From the NCBI RefSeq assembly GCF_029948125.1, contig NZ_JASAMB010000002.1, positions 326,479 through 390,478 on the forward strand: a DNA stretch of 64,000 bases. The letters run 5' to 3'. The notes beneath the pieces were generated by a model. The model had not been told where the DNA came from. It ran no database searches and saw only the letters and a list, made by a program, of their open reading frames with translations. Shown here in pieces: positions 20,596 through 26,235 of the stretch (its first letter is position 1; every line of letters begins with the position of its first letter). The DNA is from Catellatospora sp. KI3 (GTDB lineage Bacteria > Actinomycetota > Actinomycetes > Mycobacteriales > Micromonosporaceae). A program made the translations under genes and the position numbers.

Positions 20596-20601
20596 TAACG
20601 T
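20596..20601 (+). promoter_or_regulatory. Probable -10 box (TAACGT) of the tRNA-Leu gene
   Basis: TAACGT lies 26 bp before the mature 5' end of the tRNA, so the primary transcript would start about 20 nt upstream. No clear -35 is seen. Confidence 0.4.
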
Positions 20602-20627
20602 GACAGGGCACAGCGCGAGCGGTGCCA

Positions 20628-20711
20628 GCCCGGGTGGTGGAACGGCAGACACGGTTGCCTTAAAAGCGACTGCCGAAAGGCGTGCGGGTTCGAGTCCCGC
20701 CCCGGGCACCA
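20628..20711 (+). tRNA. tRNA-Leu(UAA), bldA type
   Basis: Read by hand as a full cloverleaf. The acceptor GCCCGGG/CCCGGGC is followed by A and an encoded CCA. The D arm holds TGGTGGAACGGCAGACACG. The anticodon stem is GTTGC/GCGAC with the 7-nt loop CTTAAAA, giving anticodon TAA. A long variable arm (TGCCGAAAGGCGT) marks the leucine class II type, and the T arm is GCGGGTTCGAGTCCCGC. It decodes UUA, the rarest codon in these genomes. In Streptomyces this tRNA (bldA) controls development and antibiotic genes through TTA codons. I found a single TTA codon in the window's genes (at 52206). Confidence 0.96.
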
Positions 20712-20741
20712 CAGGTTCCATGAGGTCGAACCGGCGCGGCC

Positions 20742-20770
20742 CGGAGCCGGTCGACTCGCGACCGGCTCCG
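20742..20770 (+). terminator. Hairpin terminator after tRNA-Leu
   Basis: CGGAGCCGGTCG (20742-20753) and CGACCGGCTCCG (20759-20770) form a perfect 12-bp stem with a 5-nt loop, 31 bp after the tRNA end. It also lies beyond the stop of the convergent regulator at 20864, so it could serve both. Confidence 0.75.
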
Positions 20771-20863
20771 CACCCGACTATATGATCTTGGCGAAGGGGT
20801 CGGGGCGGCTGCCTGGCCCTAGGGCTCCTCCGGCGCCGGCGGTGGACGCCGCCGTGGGTCGGA

Positions 20864-21610
20864 CTAAGGGCCGGACTGTGCGGGGGCGCAGTCCGCGGAC
20901 TCTCGGAAGGCGGAGACGTCTTCCTGGGTCACGAGGCCGACGTCGATCGCATGGCGGACGAGCAGCTGCTTGCGCCAGGGGCCGCGGCGCCTGACGTCGG
21001 TACGGGTGTGCAACGCCAGCCTTTTGATCAAGTAGTTGATGTGTGCGTCCACGGCACTCTTGCCGATGGGATGCCCGAGTCTCGTCATGGTCTCGGCGAT
21101 CGACGAGGAGGTGGGCGGAACGGCGAGGAGCGTGTTGAGCTGCGGCGCGCAAAGCAGGACGAGGACCTGGTAGTACAGCGCGGCCTTGTCGATGCAGGAG
21201 GCCGGGTCCTCGGCCGGCGCGAGGCTGCAGCCCGGAGCGATCTGGCTTTCCAGGGGCTCAGGACCGAACACGTTGAGGCCCGCGGTGTCTTCGCCGAGCG
21301 CGCCGATCGACGCCAGGTCGAACGGGATGGGGACGCTGACGCGGCCCCCTGCGACGGTGATGGCCTCAGCGCGCTCGAGATGCCGTACGCGGATGATTGA
21401 ACTGCCCAGATTGTCCAGCCGCCAGTGATCGGCGAAGGCGGTGATACGCCCGCGGATAGGGGCGCCTTCCGATCTCGGGATATGCAGGTCATGGCCGCAT
21501 GTTTCGCAACTGCAGGTGCCGAAGGTGGCGCTTGCTCCGCTGGCCAGGTGCACCGCCCGCGAAGAGTATTCCTCGCGGGAAAGGATGTGGGCGCTGAGGA
21601 CGACTTCCAC
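20864..21610 (-). CDS. FHA-like / winged-helix regulator-like protein
   Basis: 248 residues. The N-terminal about 105 residues resemble a degenerate FHA phosphothreonine-binding domain: a Gly-Ser-containing strand (HLASGASATFG), then EGAPIRGRITAFADHWRLDN, LGSSIIRVRHLE and an AGGRVSVPIPF end. The extra CSCETCGH at 33-40 is a possible metal site. The C-terminal part (about 145-235) reads like a winged helix, with SSSIAETMTRLGHPIGKSAV and INYLIKRLALHTRTDV. The GTG at 21610 has CAGGAGC upstream. It is divergent from the secreted-protein/ABC genes and is a candidate regulator or sensor of them. The assignments rest on pattern only. Confidence 0.7.
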   Translation of the reverse strand: MEVVLSAHILSREEYSSRAVHLASGASATFGTCSCETCGHDLHIPRSEGAPIRGRITAFADHWRLDNLGSSIIRVRHLERAEAITVAGGRVSVPIPFDLASIGALGEDTAGLNVFGPEPLESQIAPGCSLAPAEDPASCIDKAALYYQVLVLLCAPQLNTLLAVPPTSSSIAETMTRLGHPIGKSAVDAHINYLIKRLALHTRTDVRRRGPWRKQLLVRHAIDVGLVTQEDVSAFRESADCAPAQSGP

Positions 21611-21800
21611 TAGAAGCTCCTGAACGTATACGCGGGATCCCCCGTGAATCCGCGCACCAGCACGTTACGTATCCCACCGGCCGACGTCAATGCCTTGATC
21701 GGACGGCCCGCCAGCAGCGGTTCTATATCCATGCAGATTGCGGGCACTGCGATCTGCTGCCAGTCTCCGTGCAGCATCGATCGATTGATGGAGGTGTAAG

Positions 21801-22241
21801 TTGAACACTCGGTCTCGTATGCTGAGCATCGGGGTTGCCACGGCGACGGCGATCCTGGGATTCGGCGCCTCGGCGCTGGCGTCCCACGGCACCAGCCCGG
21901 CGCCCCTCAACCTCAAGACGAGCAGCGCCAACGAGGGGTCCACCAGCGGCACCTGGAAGTTCAACGCGGTAGGCGTCGGCCACGGTGGATTCCAGGTCGC
22001 AGTCAGTGTCTGCGACAACGTGAACGACGGCAACGGCGTCTACGGTCAGGGGCGCGTCGAGGGGTACGGCTGGTCGTCGAGCATCGGTGACGGCAACGGC
22101 TCTGCCGCCGGCTGCGGCTGGGACGGTCGAGAGATCTACGACCCCCAGGCGACGTGGGTGAACCGCGGCCAGTACCAGGTGTGCGTAGACGATTTCGGCG
22201 CCGACACCTGCGGTGTTTCGCAGTGGTTCTACCGGCACTAA
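21801..22241 (+). CDS. Small secreted four-cysteine protein
   Basis: 146 residues. It has a Sec signal peptide (hydrophobic 8-22) with likely cleavage after ALA at residues 25-27. The mature part is about 119 residues, Gly/Asn/Asp-rich and beta-prone, with four cysteines at 71, 105, 128 and 137, suggesting two disulfides. Repeated NDGNG / GDGNG turns resemble small extracellular actinomycete proteins of unknown function. The start is a TTG with a strong GGAGG 8 nt upstream. It is 9 bp before the ABC ATPase gene, so probably in the same operon. Confidence 0.8.
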   Translation: MNTRSRMLSIGVATATAILGFGASALASHGTSPAPLNLKTSSANEGSTSGTWKFNAVGVGHGGFQVAVSVCDNVNDGNGVYGQGRVEGYGWSSSIGDGNGSAAGCGWDGREIYDPQATWVNRGQYQVCVDDFGADTCGVSQWFYRH

Positions 22242-22250
22242 GGTAGAAGT

Positions 22251-22910
22251 GTGCTGATCGCTGAGAAGTTGAGTCTGACCTTCGGCGACACGGTGGCGCT
22301 CGCGGAAGCGAGCGCCACTGTTGGTGCTGGCGAAGTCGTCGCATTGGTGGGAGCCAGCGGATCCGGAAAGTCGACCATGCTGCATTGCATGGCGGGTCTG
22401 CTGCGGCCCGCGTCAGGTCGCGTCCTTTTCGACGGGCACGAGATCACAAATCTCGATGACGACTCGCGATCGGACGTCAGACGCAGCAGGTTCGGATTCG
22501 TGTTCCAATTCGCGGAACTGGTTCCGGAATTGACATTGCGGGAGAACATCGCGCTGCCTCTGGAGCTCATCGGCGTCAAGCGCAAGGACCGCGATGCCCG
22601 GGTCGAAGAACTCGTCGAGGCGCTCGGGCTCAGGGAGCACGCTGATCGGCGCGCCGCTCAGGTCTCCGGGGGCCAGGCGCAGCGTGCGGCGATCGCCCGG
22701 GGGATCGCCCACAAACCGAAGGTCGTCTTCGCTGACGAGCCGACCGGCGCTCTCGACTCAGACAACGGCAAGTTGGTGCTCGACGCCTTCTTGGCGCTTG
22801 CCCGTCACAACGGGACCGCCATTCTTCTGGTCACGCACGACCACACGGTCGCTGAATGGGCTGACCGTGTGCTGACGATGCGCGACGGACGAACCGTGGA
22901 GTCGTCATGA
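22251..22910 (+). CDS. ABC transporter ATP-binding protein (LolD/MacB type)
   Basis: 219 residues, one nucleotide-binding domain. Walker A is GASGSGKST (near 34-42), the Q-loop FQFAELVPELTLRENIALP, the signature SGGQAQRAAIARG, Walker B VVFADEPTGALD, and the H-loop LLVTHDHTVAEWAD. The ALD after DEPTG and the short length place it with the LolD/FtsE/MacB-type exporters that work with FtsX-fold permeases, which fits the next gene. Third codon positions are visibly richer in A/T than in the flanking housekeeping genes. It overlaps the permease gene by 4 bp. Confidence 0.95.
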   Translation: MLIAEKLSLTFGDTVALAEASATVGAGEVVALVGASGSGKSTMLHCMAGLLRPASGRVLFDGHEITNLDDDSRSDVRRSRFGFVFQFAELVPELTLRENIALPLELIGVKRKDRDARVEELVEALGLREHADRRAAQVSGGQAQRAAIARGIAHKPKVVFADEPTGALDSDNGKLVLDAFLALARHNGTAILLVTHDHTVAEWADRVLTMRDGRTVESS

Positions 22911-25207
22911 TGCTCAGACTCGCCCTGCGGTTGATGCGGGGCGGCGGCAGGTCCGGCATGGTGCGGCTGGCCCTCATGATCGTGGGGATCGCGGTCGGTG
23001 TCATCGCGGCCGCGCTGGTCGCCGCGATGCCAGGCGTGCTGGCCGACCGGGAGCAGGTGCTGGCGGCCCGGGCGCCGCTGCTGGTGGAGAACCCGGACGC
23101 GGTCCGCTTCCTCTTCGCGCAGTACGACGATGTCTGGCGCGGCGAGCGGCTGGGCCGCATCTTCCTTGCCCAGGTGGCCGGCGACGCTCCCGCGCCACCC
23201 GGGCTCAAGGCGCTTCCGCAGCCCGGTGAGATCATGGTGTCGCCCGCTCTGGCACGCCTGCTGACCACCGACCGCGACCTCGCGGAGCTCGTGCCGGGTC
23301 GCGTGGTGGCCACGATCGAGGCGCCCGGCCTGCTCGGGCCGGATGAGCTGTACGCCTATGTGGGTACGACCAAGGATGCGATCGGCGACCCGCACCAGGG
23401 CCTGGCCTTCGGCAGCCGGGACGGGTTCGCGCTGGAGAAGCAGCACGCCGGCCTTCCCCAGGGCCTCGCCCTGCTCGTCCTGCCGCCCGTCGCCCTGTAC
23501 CTGGTCGTCTGCGGCCGCCTGGCGGCCACGACGCGTGCCCGCCGGTACGCGGCCCTGCGGCTGTTGGGGCTGCGGCGCGACCGGACACTGGCACTGGCGG
23601 CCACCGAAGCAGCGATCGCCGGCGGCATCGGGGCGGTGCTCGGGCTCGCCGGATTCGCCGTGGCGCAGCCTGTGCTCGCAGGGTCGGGTGTGCTCGGCTT
23701 CACCTGGTACCCCGAACGCGCGGCGATGGGGCCGGTCGTCAGCATTCTCGTGTTCATCGTCGTCGCGGCCGCTGCGGCGGCGCTGGGCGCGATGGGTCTG
23801 CGGGAGAGCCTGCGCCGCCCGCTGAGCGGGCGGCGGGGACTGGTCGAACCGCGTGCCAGATGGTGGTTGGTACTGCCGCTGATACTCGGTCTGGGCATGC
23901 TCGCACAGCCGATGATGATGCGACCGGACCGCATCGGCGAGGCTACCCGGCTGCCGATGCCGGATGCGTCCGCGTGGCTGGCGATGGCGGGTATCGCACT
24001 GGCGATCGGCGGCGCCCTGCTGGCGATCCGGCCCCTGCTGGCGGCCACCTCCCGAGTGCTGTCCCATGCCCGGCTGCCGTACCCGCTGCGCCTGGCCGGT
24101 CGCCAGCTCGCCGTCGAGCCCGGATCCACGATCCGCCTGGTCGCCGGACTGTCCCTCATCGTCCTCGTGGCGGGTGTCGGGTCAGGCCTGCTGGAGGACC
24201 TGGGGCGGCGAGCCGCTCCCACGCTCACCAGCTATGAGGCGTCCGTCATCGGTGCGCAGATCGCCGATCCCGGCAGTAGGGAGAAAATCGGCGACCTTCC
24301 TGCGGAGTACCGCTGGACGATGCAGCGGAGCCAGGTCGTGGACAACGTCTCCGTCGTCACCGAACCGACCGTGTCGCAGAGCATCGACATGATCGGTGTG
24401 GAACTGGTCGTCGTCGAGTGCGCGCACCTGCGGGCGATCACGCAGCAGCCGCTGTCGAACTGCCGGGACGGGAGCCTCTACCGTCTGCTGCCCCAACATC
24501 TCGTCGGCACACCGTACGAGATTCCGGCCGGCAAGACGATCTCGTTCGGCACTGAGTCGGCCGGCCCCTTCAATCTCCAGACGCCACAGGATGCCCTGGT
24601 GATTCCCCAGGACAATCCGTTCGCTGTCGACACCTTCGGCGGCCTGGTGCTGACGGGCTCGCAGTCGCCCACCGGCTGGAACCACGATGTGCGCATGCAC
24701 TTCCTCATCTCCGGCAGTCCGGGCAAGGTCGAGGAGTTCAAGGCCGCGGCCGCCGCGATCGCGCCGTCCGCGCCGGTCAAGATCTACGCCGAGAACCTGC
24801 AGATGCTGGAGGCGGCTCGCAATCAGCGCGGGGTGCTCGACTTCGGCGTCATGGTCGGGTTCGTGCTCGCCGCGCTCGCTTTCGCGATCGCCGCCGTCGA
24901 CCGCGGCATGGAGCGGCGCCGCAGCGTCACCTCGCTGGTCGTGCTGGGTATGCGGATACAGGCGATCCGGGTGACCCAGGTCGTTCAGGTGTGCGTTCCC
25001 GTCGTGGTGACCCTGACTCTCGTCATGCTGATCGGGCATCTCGGCGGGAATGTCGCCCTGCGCCTCAACGACATGCAGCGGGAATGGTATTCCGGCACGA
25101 TCGGGGCGATGGCGCCGCTGCTCCTGGTCGCATTCGTCACGGCCCTCGTCGCCGCGGCGATGGTGGTGGGCCGCCGACTCAGACCGGAAGATCTACGCCA
25201 GGAATGA
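22907..25207 (+). CDS. FtsX/MacB-type ABC transporter permease
   Basis: 766 residues. The topology is a first TM helix near residues 22-42, an outer loop, TM clusters near residues 185-330 (with ARRYAALRLLGLRRDRTLAL, a cytoplasmic turn typical of FtsX proteins), and one at about 345-420. A large outer domain (about 430-640) follows, then a last three-helix group with RGMERRRSVTSLVVLGMRI. This duplicated FtsX arrangement fits mechanotransmission-type exporters. The outer domain could contact the secreted protein. The substrate is unknown. It overlaps the ATPase (ATGA) and ends 40 bp before the signal-peptidase-like gene. Confidence 0.9.
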   Translation: MMLRLALRLMRGGGRSGMVRLALMIVGIAVGVIAAALVAAMPGVLADREQVLAARAPLLVENPDAVRFLFAQYDDVWRGERLGRIFLAQVAGDAPAPPGLKALPQPGEIMVSPALARLLTTDRDLAELVPGRVVATIEAPGLLGPDELYAYVGTTKDAIGDPHQGLAFGSRDGFALEKQHAGLPQGLALLVLPPVALYLVVCGRLAATTRARRYAALRLLGLRRDRTLALAATEAAIAGGIGAVLGLAGFAVAQPVLAGSGVLGFTWYPERAAMGPVVSILVFIVVAAAAAALGAMGLRESLRRPLSGRRGLVEPRARWWLVLPLILGLGMLAQPMMMRPDRIGEATRLPMPDASAWLAMAGIALAIGGALLAIRPLLAATSRVLSHARLPYPLRLAGRQLAVEPGSTIRLVAGLSLIVLVAGVGSGLLEDLGRRAAPTLTSYEASVIGAQIADPGSREKIGDLPAEYRWTMQRSQVVDNVSVVTEPTVSQSIDMIGVELVVVECAHLRAITQQPLSNCRDGSLYRLLPQHLVGTPYEIPAGKTISFGTESAGPFNLQTPQDALVIPQDNPFAVDTFGGLVLTGSQSPTGWNHDVRMHFLISGSPGKVEEFKAAAAAIAPSAPVKIYAENLQMLEAARNQRGVLDFGVMVGFVLAALAFAIAAVDRGMERRRSVTSLVVLGMRIQAIRVTQVVQVCVPVVVTLTLVMLIGHLGGNVALRLNDMQREWYSGTIGAMAPLLLVAFVTALVAAAMVVGRRLRPEDLRQE

Positions 25208-25247
25208 CGGGCGGCCAAAACCTGGACAAGCCAAGGAGAACTTCAAC

Positions 25248-25961
25248 ATGAACGACAATGTGTCAACCCCCGCCCGCAGTCGCCGGTTCGGTCCGCTGGC
25301 CGTTGTGGCGGCGGTGGGGCTGGTGCTGTTCGCGGTCGGCGCCGTTCTTCTCGCTACCGGGTACAGCTGGCAGCCGGTCCGGACGTCTGTCATGTCCCCA
25401 CAGGTCACGCGTGACGAAACCGTGCTGGTCGAGTCGGCCGAGGCCGCCGGGATCCGACGCGGAGACGTGATCGCCATGTCCAGTGGAGCCTGGGCGGGCG
25501 AGCCGAGTGGTGCGACCTACATTCTGCGCGTCGTGGGGATGCCGGGCGAGACCGTCGAGTGCTGCGATCCGCAGGGTCGGATTCTCGTCGACGGGGCTCC
25601 GCTGACCGAAGCGTACGCCGGTCCGGGCAATGACGCTTTCGGGAAGTTCTCGGTGCCTGTGGCGGCTGGCCATTTCTTCGTGCTTGGGGACCGGCGTGAC
25701 GCCGCCCGCGACTCGAGGGCCCACCTCGACGCCGGCGGCGGAGCCATCGCCGCGGCAGCCGTCGAGGGCCGCGTGGTGGCTGTGGCGCTCCCGCTGTCCG
25801 CGGTTCGTACCGTGCGGACCGATACCGGACCTGGCCTGGTCATCGCGGCGGCCGTGACCGGCATCGGTGCCGTCCTGCTGATCGGCGCAGGCGTGTTCGG
25901 GGCAGGGCGGCTGATTCGGGTGCTGCGTCGGCGGAAGCCCCAGACGGCCGACACCTGGTAG
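25248..25961 (+). CDS. Signal peptidase I-like protein, catalytic dyad apparently lost
   Basis: 237 residues with TM helices near 17-37 and 197-218 and an outer S26-fold domain between. Boxes of signal peptidase I are recognisable: TSVMSP at 46-51 (box B), RRGDVIAM at 70-77, YILRVVGMPGETVE at 91-104 (box D), and FVLGDRRDAARDSR at 144-157 (box E). In box B the catalytic Ser position before Met is Val48. In box D the catalytic Lys position is Leu93. Box E is intact. An inactive, scaffold-like S26 protein is therefore likely, unless Ser47 shifts register. A strong AAGGAGAA site precedes the ATG. Confidence 0.82.
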   Translation: MNDNVSTPARSRRFGPLAVVAAVGLVLFAVGAVLLATGYSWQPVRTSVMSPQVTRDETVLVESAEAAGIRRGDVIAMSSGAWAGEPSGATYILRVVGMPGETVECCDPQGRILVDGAPLTEAYAGPGNDAFGKFSVPVAAGHFFVLGDRRDAARDSRAHLDAGGGAIAAAAVEGRVVAVALPLSAVRTVRTDTGPGLVIAAAVTGIGAVLLIGAGVFGAGRLIRVLRRRKPQTADTW

Positions 25962-26006
25962 CGGATGTCGTCGGCGCACCCCGAAAAGTCGGAGGGGGCG
26001 GCAGCG

Positions 26007-26043
26007 CCTGGCCGGGCCGGACACGTCACAGGGCCCGGCCAGG
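26007..26043 (+). terminator. Hairpin terminator closing the ABC cassette
   Basis: CCTGGCCGGGCC (26007-26018) pairs perfectly with GGCCCGGCCAGG (26032-26043), and the flanking GGCA/TGCC extends the stem with mismatches. It lies 45 bp after the signal-peptidase-like gene. Confidence 0.75.
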
Positions 26044-26161
26044 TGATGCCACGCTGGCGGCTTGGCATCAGGTCAGGTGGCAGTGCCGCAGATCACCACT
26101 GAACCGCTGGGCTGGCTTTTGCCTGATGTGGCGCTGGAGTGCCGAAGCTGATCTTCGGTCT

Positions 26162-26176
26162 GAAAGTCGGACTTTC
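26162..26176. promoter_or_regulatory. Palindrome upstream of the Bax-inhibitor-like gene
   Basis: GAAAGTC-G-GACTTTC is a perfect 7+1+7 inverted repeat. It lies about 20 bp before a possible -10 (TACGCT, 26195-26200), a place fit for a regulator. Confidence 0.4.
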
Positions 26177-26235
26177 CAGCATGCGTTGATCCGCTACGCT
26201 GACGCCACCATCCATGGAGGAGGCGAGGAAGCGCA

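Follow-up and report, generated by a model that had tools for sequence, protein, structure and literature searches.

A cassette adjoining tRNA-Leu(UAA) in Catellatospora combines a secreted four-cysteine protein, an FtsX-type ABC transporter and a signal peptidase homologue without its catalytic dyad

The DNA analysed here, referred to as the window, is a stretch of 64,000 nucleotides from Catellatospora sp. KI3 (contig NZ_JASAMB010000002.1, positions 326,479 to 390,478 of the forward strand), and its subject is a five-gene cassette that starts directly 3' of a tRNA-Leu(UAA) gene. Four of the genes, P0002-P0003-P0004-P0005, form a tight forward operon encoding a small secreted protein, the ATPase and the permease of an ATP-binding cassette (ABC) transporter and a homologue of signal peptidase I (family S26), respectively; they are separated by a 9 bp gap, a 4-bp overlap and a 40 bp gap, and P0001, encoding an FHA-like protein with a winged helix-turn-helix (wHTH)-like part, is divergent from P0002. 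The features, in window coordinates, are as follows:

20628-20711, + strand: tRNA-Leu(UAA), located by ARAGORN, with the cassette directly on its 3' side
20712-26117, no strand: accessory insert of ~5.4 kb holding the entire cassette, delimited by congener comparison and lower in GC content than the window
20864-21610, - strand: P0001, 248 aa, FHA-like fold and helical (wHTH-like) C-terminal part; member of a branch with FGTCSCETC where FGRG would stand
21801-22241, + strand: P0002, secreted four-Cys protein, 146 aa, TTG start
22251-22910, + strand: P0003, LolD/MacB-type ABC ATPase, 219 aa (PF00005, E 8.5e-36)
22907-25207, + strand: P0004, FtsX-type permease, 766 aa (PF02687, 26.9 bits)
25248-25961, + strand: P0005, pseudo-signal peptidase I (S26), 237 aa (PF10502, TIGR02227)
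26000-26050, + strand: inverted repeat 3' of the operon (arms 26000-26018 and 26032-26050), a possible terminator without a T-run

All five open reading frames (ORFs) and the three spacings lie where the original prediction, made from the letters alone, had placed them. The terminator that it put at 26007-26043 stood in part: the inverted repeat is there, but a consensus terminator scan that requires a T-run did not list it. By eye, GGAGG precedes the TTG of P0002 by 6-7 nt, and a ribosome site lies upstream of the P0005 ATG; the P0005 ORF could be extended upstream to 25050, but this ribosome site belongs to the start at 25248. Short palindromes are present in the divergent intergenic region between P0001 and P0002, in which a promoter scan found no promoter. 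The statement that no named system has such a composition was also upheld, as none was found in Pfam, NCBIfam, PADLOC, PHROGs or the open literature searched. At a threshold of E 0.001, P0001, P0002, P0004 and P0005 matched none of the PADLOC anti-phage models and P0003 matched ATPase-type models only (best mad3, E 2.5e-25), and P0001, P0002 and P0004 had no match in PHROGs, a comparison from which P0003 was left out. Residues 138-185 of P0005 match the phage family phrog_15562, whose function is unassigned, at E 7.6e-06.

The cassette is an insertion adjoining tRNA-Leu(UAA). In all six congeners fetched out of ten, this tRNA stands to the left of a cassette-free site and is followed by a Bax-inhibitor-like gene. 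In G090 and G091, the nearest two, with flanking matches 87-96% identical to the window, the equivalents of window positions 20710/20711 and 26118/26116 are separated by 32 and 26 nt, and the remaining four carry 491-847 nt of unmatched sequence at the site. The best permease and S26 matches in the ten congeners (E 2.2e-35 and E 2.5e-23, respectively) do not come near those of the cassette relatives. The GC content of the insert is 0.685 versus 0.727 for the window, and GC content at third codon positions (GC3) is 0.76-0.875 in its genes versus 0.96-0.98 in three flanking genes. We infer that the cassette was acquired horizontally. There is no integrase among its five genes, no common word of 9-20 bases between 20600-20800 and 25950-26200, and no match in the plasmid records searched for P0004 or for one Streptomyces homologue of P0002. 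Adjacency to a tRNA is not a rule: nine relative cassettes were inspected together with two more regulator/permease loci, and a tRNA was present in the fetched stretch of L065 alone, a locus from Micromonospora pattaloongensis. At that locus a second FtsX-type ABC lies 3' of the S26 gene, beside tRNA-Arg (L065:11031-14394), and consists of an ATPase and a 717-aa permease with a 178-aa gene before both.

The product of P0002 is, as predicted, a small secreted four-Cys protein, with a Sec-type signal that is likely cleaved after ASALA (by eye) and cysteines at positions 71, 105, 128 and 137. Its mature part was predicted as an 8-strand beta-sandwich (predicted local distance difference test score, pLDDT, 88; predicted template modelling score, pTM, 0.83) from an alignment of 50 out of 55 sequences, two of which are damaged (L069 and L071). 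P0002 itself matched no Pfam or NCBIfam family at E 1, and the 50-member alignment of its family gave no usable match in either database. A link to lysozyme inhibitors was dropped, as only 3 of the 50 members touched such a model (best E 0.0031), which we treated as chance. The LolD-type ATPase and large FtsX-type permease with an outer domain were likewise recovered: the best NCBIfam match of P0003 (PF00005) is LolD at 201.1 bits, below the equivalog cut-off of 307.75, and P0004 scores above the gathering score of PF02687 (25.5 bits). Two outer stretches are seen in P0004. One follows the first membrane segment; the other extends roughly from residue 434 to residue 640 and contains Cys505 and Cys519, which are invariant across eight aligned permeases. 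These eight permeases matched no NCBIfam family at E 0.1.

The S26 domain of P0005 is clear (PF10502, 77.5 bits with a cut-off of 22.9; TIGR02227, 77.3 bits with a cut-off of 47); hydrophobic segments at 11-41 and 193-226 flank most of it, and a third at 165-186 lies inside. The catalytic pair is absent, as the original prediction had stated, with Val48 at the position of the catalytic Ser and Leu93 at that of the Lys. Moreover, the Ser-Lys dyad is intact in none of ten cassette S26 proteins, compared to all 33 other S26 ORFs (taken as the best-scoring matches from 32 family loci, L002-L033, with duplicates dropped). The Ser position is occupied by Val in six of the ten, by Ala in two and by Ser in L067, the tenth protein (L071) being truncated; the Lys position is occupied by Leu in five, Val in two, Gln in two and Met in one. 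In a tree from which the truncated L071 protein was omitted, the nine cassette proteins separated from the 33 controls (support 100/99), the L067/L068 pair being nearest to ordinary S26. The host genome contains three other S26 ORFs, in which the dyad is present. In spite of dyad loss, nine of the ten cassette S26 genes keep an open, full-length frame. Nei-Gojobori dN/dS ratios for three pairs were 0.31, 0.32 and 0.23 for S26 versus 0.15, 0.12 and 0.10 for the ATPase, figures that are rough since dS is near 1. The dead gene therefore looks to be under purifying selection with a looser constraint than the ATPase, its ratios being below 1 and above those of the ATPase. For the secreted gene, equally rough ratios were 0.11 (L067/L068) and 0.46 and 0.70 (window versus L066 and L070).

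Close relatives of P0004 occur in eight others of the family set of 354 genomes (G076, G314, G328, G311, G211 twice, G012, G123 and G140), and a scan of named genomes by a single peptide pattern, which is not a census, gave 61 loci, mostly from Streptomyces, with closely related species among them (shared 60-mer in L087/L091 and L117/L125). The 73 loci scanned reduce to 71 distinct ones when two duplicates are counted once each (L082 = L070, L083 = L071); L079-L081 were excluded as identical in DNA to L064, L066 and L065. Loci were called with a simple gene caller, which misses genes of low GC3 and called P0003 too short. In 54 of the 71 loci, mostly from Streptomyces, the 1.5 kb upstream of the ATPase contain a P0002-family ORF or fragment, so that a small secreted protein before the ABC is a rule in two permease groups and not a peculiarity of the window. 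Among the 56 named loci L084-L139 (mostly Streptomyces), the ATPase was found in 52, the permease in 52, the secreted family in 42 and the next neighbour family in 13. In seven loci (L073-L078 and L134) a PadR-like gene (by eye) precedes the ATPase instead of the secreted gene, and in L128 (6028-7189) and L135 (6863-7183) inhibitor-I36-like secreted proteins stand directly before an ABC of the same superfamily, where the secreted partner seems to have been swapped. S26 ORFs accompany the permease in the window and in 9 of the 71 loci, and none was found in the other 62 within the stretches examined; the ten S26-bearing permeases form one clade with a support of 99 in the Shimodaira-Hasegawa-like approximate likelihood ratio test (SH-aLRT), in a tree made by a quick search with SH-aLRT only and with long branches for L071 and L123. 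The proposed check of the gene set across genera thus gave a conserved unit of the four forward genes in several genera.

Some of these loci deserve mention in their own right. The unit of secreted protein, ATPase and permease is frequent in Streptomyces, where the secreted proteins are divergent and mostly have two Cys, and it is found at two places in some genomes (yr375, DSM 15324 and griseoruber). A metagenome-assembled genome of Acidimicrobiales carries the trio with a four-Cys secreted protein and no S26 on the examined contig (L123:4537-10147), and has a sortase-like gene and genes for two CAP-like secreted proteins as its neighbours (by eye). Genome G211 has two cassette copies (L068 and L069:5908-12282), and the L069 copy has a broken secreted gene and an interrupted permease, whose parts are separated by a reverse-strand ORF.

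Loss within the cassette appears to run in one direction. A profile search of the 354 family genomes, which scored 12 first-look candidates per genome listed, recovered seven P0002-family places from six genomes, every one beside the ABC. In the ten loci of the S26 clade, on the other hand, the secreted gene is intact in only five (the window, L066, L067, L068 and L070); it has an internal deletion in L071 and a broken frame in L069, and is reduced to a C-terminal remnant in L065, to a signal-peptide-like stub in L064 and to no recognisable remnant in L072. The permease is uninterrupted in eight of the ten, the exceptions being L069 and L072, and three of these eight (L064, L065 and L071) have a broken or lost secreted gene; L064 and L065 still retain the ATPase, the permease and a full-length S26. 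Three of 50 loci in the Streptomyces-type clade have no secreted gene: L125, at a contig edge, and L100 and L108, where no remnant was recognisable. Small as the numbers are, such one-way retention would be the pattern expected of a toxin and its protection genes, since protection would outlive the toxin. The ABC had been called an exporter in the original prediction, and self-protection accounts no less well for the retention pattern. The prediction that the dead S26 protein handles or senses the secreted protein stays conjectural; at L064 and L065 S26 is still beside the ABC although the secreted gene is gone.

The regulator P0001 stands apart from this unit. It has no Pfam match better than E 0.2, no match to the Pfam FHA family and nothing usable in NCBIfam; its predicted fold (mean pLDDT 86.5, pTM 0.54) gave FHA domains (MDC1, Rv0020c) and SMAD-MH2 domains as top Foldseek matches, the best at E 0.012 and none at E 0.001. 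Members of the P0001 family, the window's own included, are found at 39 places spread over 38 genomes of the 354, and among the other 38 places the homologue could be located in 36 (L199 and L219 were not placed). Only two of the 36 lie beside a cassette-type permease, L182 and the Hamadaea locus L193, and the cassette as a regular five-gene unit, with the regulator as its fifth member, is rejected. At L182 (5166-8762) a P0001-like gene is divergent from genes for a secreted 119-aa four-Cys protein and a 740-aa permease-like protein without a Pfam match, with no ATPase gene between these two; this locus is a pared-down relative of the cassette, and its secreted protein looks unrelated.

A Ser/Thr-kinase match lies at most three called genes away in 24 of the 36 placed P0001 relatives, of which 16 are in genus g4, the genus that holds Couchioplanes; for one neighbour tested, the Pkinase domain was confirmed by Pfam. 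In the motif alignment of 34 relatives (L189 and L210 are excluded, as the excised sequence extended beyond the stop codon), FGR is kept in all 22 aligned kinase-associated proteins. The window and seven relatives have G-x-C-x-C-x-x-C at this place (FGTC in P0001), and none of the seven has a Ser/Thr-kinase match within three called genes; the other five aligned relatives without a kinase have neither motif, except that L218 has FGR. The Ser of the FHA motif varies even among kinase-linked relatives and was not used as a criterion. The Arg after FG is the phosphothreonine-binding residue of FHA domains. Since it is gone, a CxCxxC cluster stands in its place and no kinase neighbour was found for the seven relatives with this motif, P0001 is probably an FHA-like regulator that no longer reads phosphothreonine, and the earlier label of a phosphopeptide-type regulator is not supported. 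The Cys cluster suggests a metal or redox input.

Taken together, these data lead us, tentatively, to consider it possible that the cassette is a horizontally acquired unit for envelope antagonism and self-protection, analogous to that of lactococcin 972 (Lcn972), with the dead S26 protein as an accessory of the ABC. This reading is based on the conservation of the trio, the Lcn972-like architecture, the one-way retention, the keeping of S26 without its dyad and the precedent of the streptococcal protein SipA. In such a scheme P0002 would be exported via Sec and act outside the cell, most likely on the envelope of competitors, and P0003-P0004 would work as an FtsX-type (Type VII-like) ABC and use its outer domains to clear or dislodge P0002 from the membrane surface of the producer. 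The dead S26 protein, anchored beside the permease, may have retained its fold to bind a peptide, the secreted protein or its target and not to cut, as proposed for SipA, and P0001 would control the divergent promoter region, probably without reading phosphothreonine.

Several observations weigh against this proposal. No activity is known for P0002, and a Foldseek search of its predicted structure against the PDB and viral models gave nothing under E 0.001. In hhalign comparisons the P0002 family and Lcn972 (50 versus 4 sequences) scored a probability of 0.4%, and the P0004-type and Lcn972 permeases 0.5%. The retention asymmetry rests on three loci, in one of which (L071) S26 is also truncated, an exporter without cargo could persist by chance, and the limited candidate list of the profile search restricts what it says about orphan secreted genes. 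With regard to S26, its rough dN/dS ratios were higher for the window versus L066 and L070 (0.64 and 0.42; ATPase 0.31 and 0.21), and its gene lies 5' of the secreted gene and away from the permease in L067 and L068. In addition, the 50 permeases of the Streptomyces-type clade are accompanied by the secreted gene in 47 cases and by S26 in none in the examined DNA, so that S26 is dispensable for the core.

A dedicated maturation or release system, in which the dead S26 would hold the signal-peptide end of P0002 uncut while the ABC pulls P0002 off the membrane in a LolCDE-like manner, appears doubtful to us. The ATPase does score closest to LolD, and the secreted gene opens the operon, with the ATPase gene 9 bp behind it; also, AyrRABC can functionally replace signal peptidase in Staphylococcus aureus and its AyrBC part has been speculated to be LolCDE-like (PMC5727409, PMC5013292), a likeness to the cassette by description and not by sequence. 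However, the AxA site of P0002 is ordinary-looking (by eye), the genome has its three dyad-bearing S26 ORFs, Streptomyces-type units do without S26 in the examined DNA, and S26 and the ABC persist in L064 and L065 after loss of the secreted gene.

It is unlikely that the cassette is a unit for envelope sensing or repair, comparable to FtsEX/YbbAP-TesA or BceAB, in which the ABC moves P0002 and the dead S26 so as to remodel or detoxify the envelope, with no antagonism involved. The coupling of a Type VII ABC to a hydrolase in YbbAP-TesA, one of the known FtsX-type ABCs that have outer partners (PMC12646458), and the swapping of the partner for an inhibitor-I36-like protein at the secreted-gene position in L128 and L135 speak for this idea, but the sporadic distribution (the seven P0002-family places in 6 of 354 genomes) and the decay of the secreted gene are better explained by an accessory function than by a core task at the envelope.

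In a further scenario, which we regard as improbable, P0002-type four-Cys proteins would attack signal peptidase I itself, which is essential and works on the outer face of the membrane, and the dead S26 would be a decoy that gives immunity by mimicking the target, having to bind the toxin without cutting, with the ABC removing bound toxin. Such a role would account for the retention of S26 with the ABC after secreted-gene loss, for selection on its sequence despite dyad loss, and for the lack of S26 in the Streptomyces units, which have divergent, mostly two-Cys secreted proteins and presumably other targets. Finally, linkage by chance or shared ancestry alone, with S26 as a decaying remnant, is suggested by the copies with an interrupted permease (L069 and L072) or a truncated S26 (L071) but is largely refuted by the recurrence of the unit in several genera and by an S26 that is full length in 9 of 10 copies with dN/dS of 0.23-0.64 in five pairs.

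If the antagonism and self-protection reading holds, actinomycetes would contain a widespread unnamed class of secreted-protein/ABC units, one branch of which has made a membrane component without enzymatic activity out of a signal peptidase. It would offer a testable case for roles of dead S26 proteins beyond pilus assembly, and the units could supply envelope-active proteins that come with their own protection genes. FHA-like regulators of the CxCxxC branch are a second testable case, that of a phospho-reader with a seemingly changed input.

Among known systems, lactococcin 972 is the closest in plan. In Lcn972 clusters the bacteriocin gene is accompanied by orf2-orf3, which encode a putative immunity ABC, and Lcn972 binds lipid II (PMC4055356). 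The cassette shares with this system (TIGR01653/TIGR01654/TIGR03608) a small secreted protein, a large permease and a LolD-like ATPase, but the gene order differs: a search of 246 class genomes gave actinobacterial Lcn972 loci in 3, and these have the order secreted protein, permease of ~640-690 aa, ATPase. No P0005 match was found among the called genes listed for these three loci. TIGR01653 was matched neither by P0002 (no NCBIfam match at E 1) nor by its 50-member alignment (not among the families matched at E 0.1), and TIGR01654 matches one actinobacterial Lcn972 permease at E 6.5e-08, below the cut-off, but not the eight cassette-type permeases. For TIGR03608 (cut-off 254.85), P0003 scored 176.9 bits and an actinobacterial Lcn972 ATPase 221.4, which is its best family and also below the cut-off. 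Membership in the lactococcin 972 family is rejected on account of the hhalign results for the secreted protein and the permease.

S26 proteins without their catalytic residues have precedents. SipA of Streptococcus pyogenes lacks the dyad, keeps the peptide-binding cleft and is essential in pilus assembly; mutation of the old-dyad residues and of one cleft residue left pilus assembly unaffected, so that binding by the cleft stands as a proposal for its mode of action (PMC4049620). SpsA of S. aureus is an S26 homologue without the catalytic Ser and Lys (PMC12445088). By description, P0005 has in common with both the loss of these two residues, but it is tied to an ABC and a secreted protein, whereas SipA is tied to sortase-built pili. 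The replacing residues are Val/Ala and Leu/Val/Met/Gln in the cassette proteins and Asp and Gly in SipA.

AyrRABC is like the cassette an ABC linked to signal-peptidase function, by description only; AyrA is DUF3169 and not S26, no secreted gene is named in the operon, and the ABC is described as a member of the type 2 family. The regulator P0001 belongs to the same family as the unnamed FHA-like/wHTH proteins, likewise unmatched in Pfam, beside Ser/Thr kinases, and its branch differs from them in having CxCxxC and no kinase neighbour found. With YbbAP-TesA, FtsEX and LolCDE, the cassette shares a LolD-type ATPase and an FtsX-type permease; what distinguishes it is a single 766-aa permease with two outer stretches, and the partnering of the ABC with a secreted beta-protein and with a dead S26.

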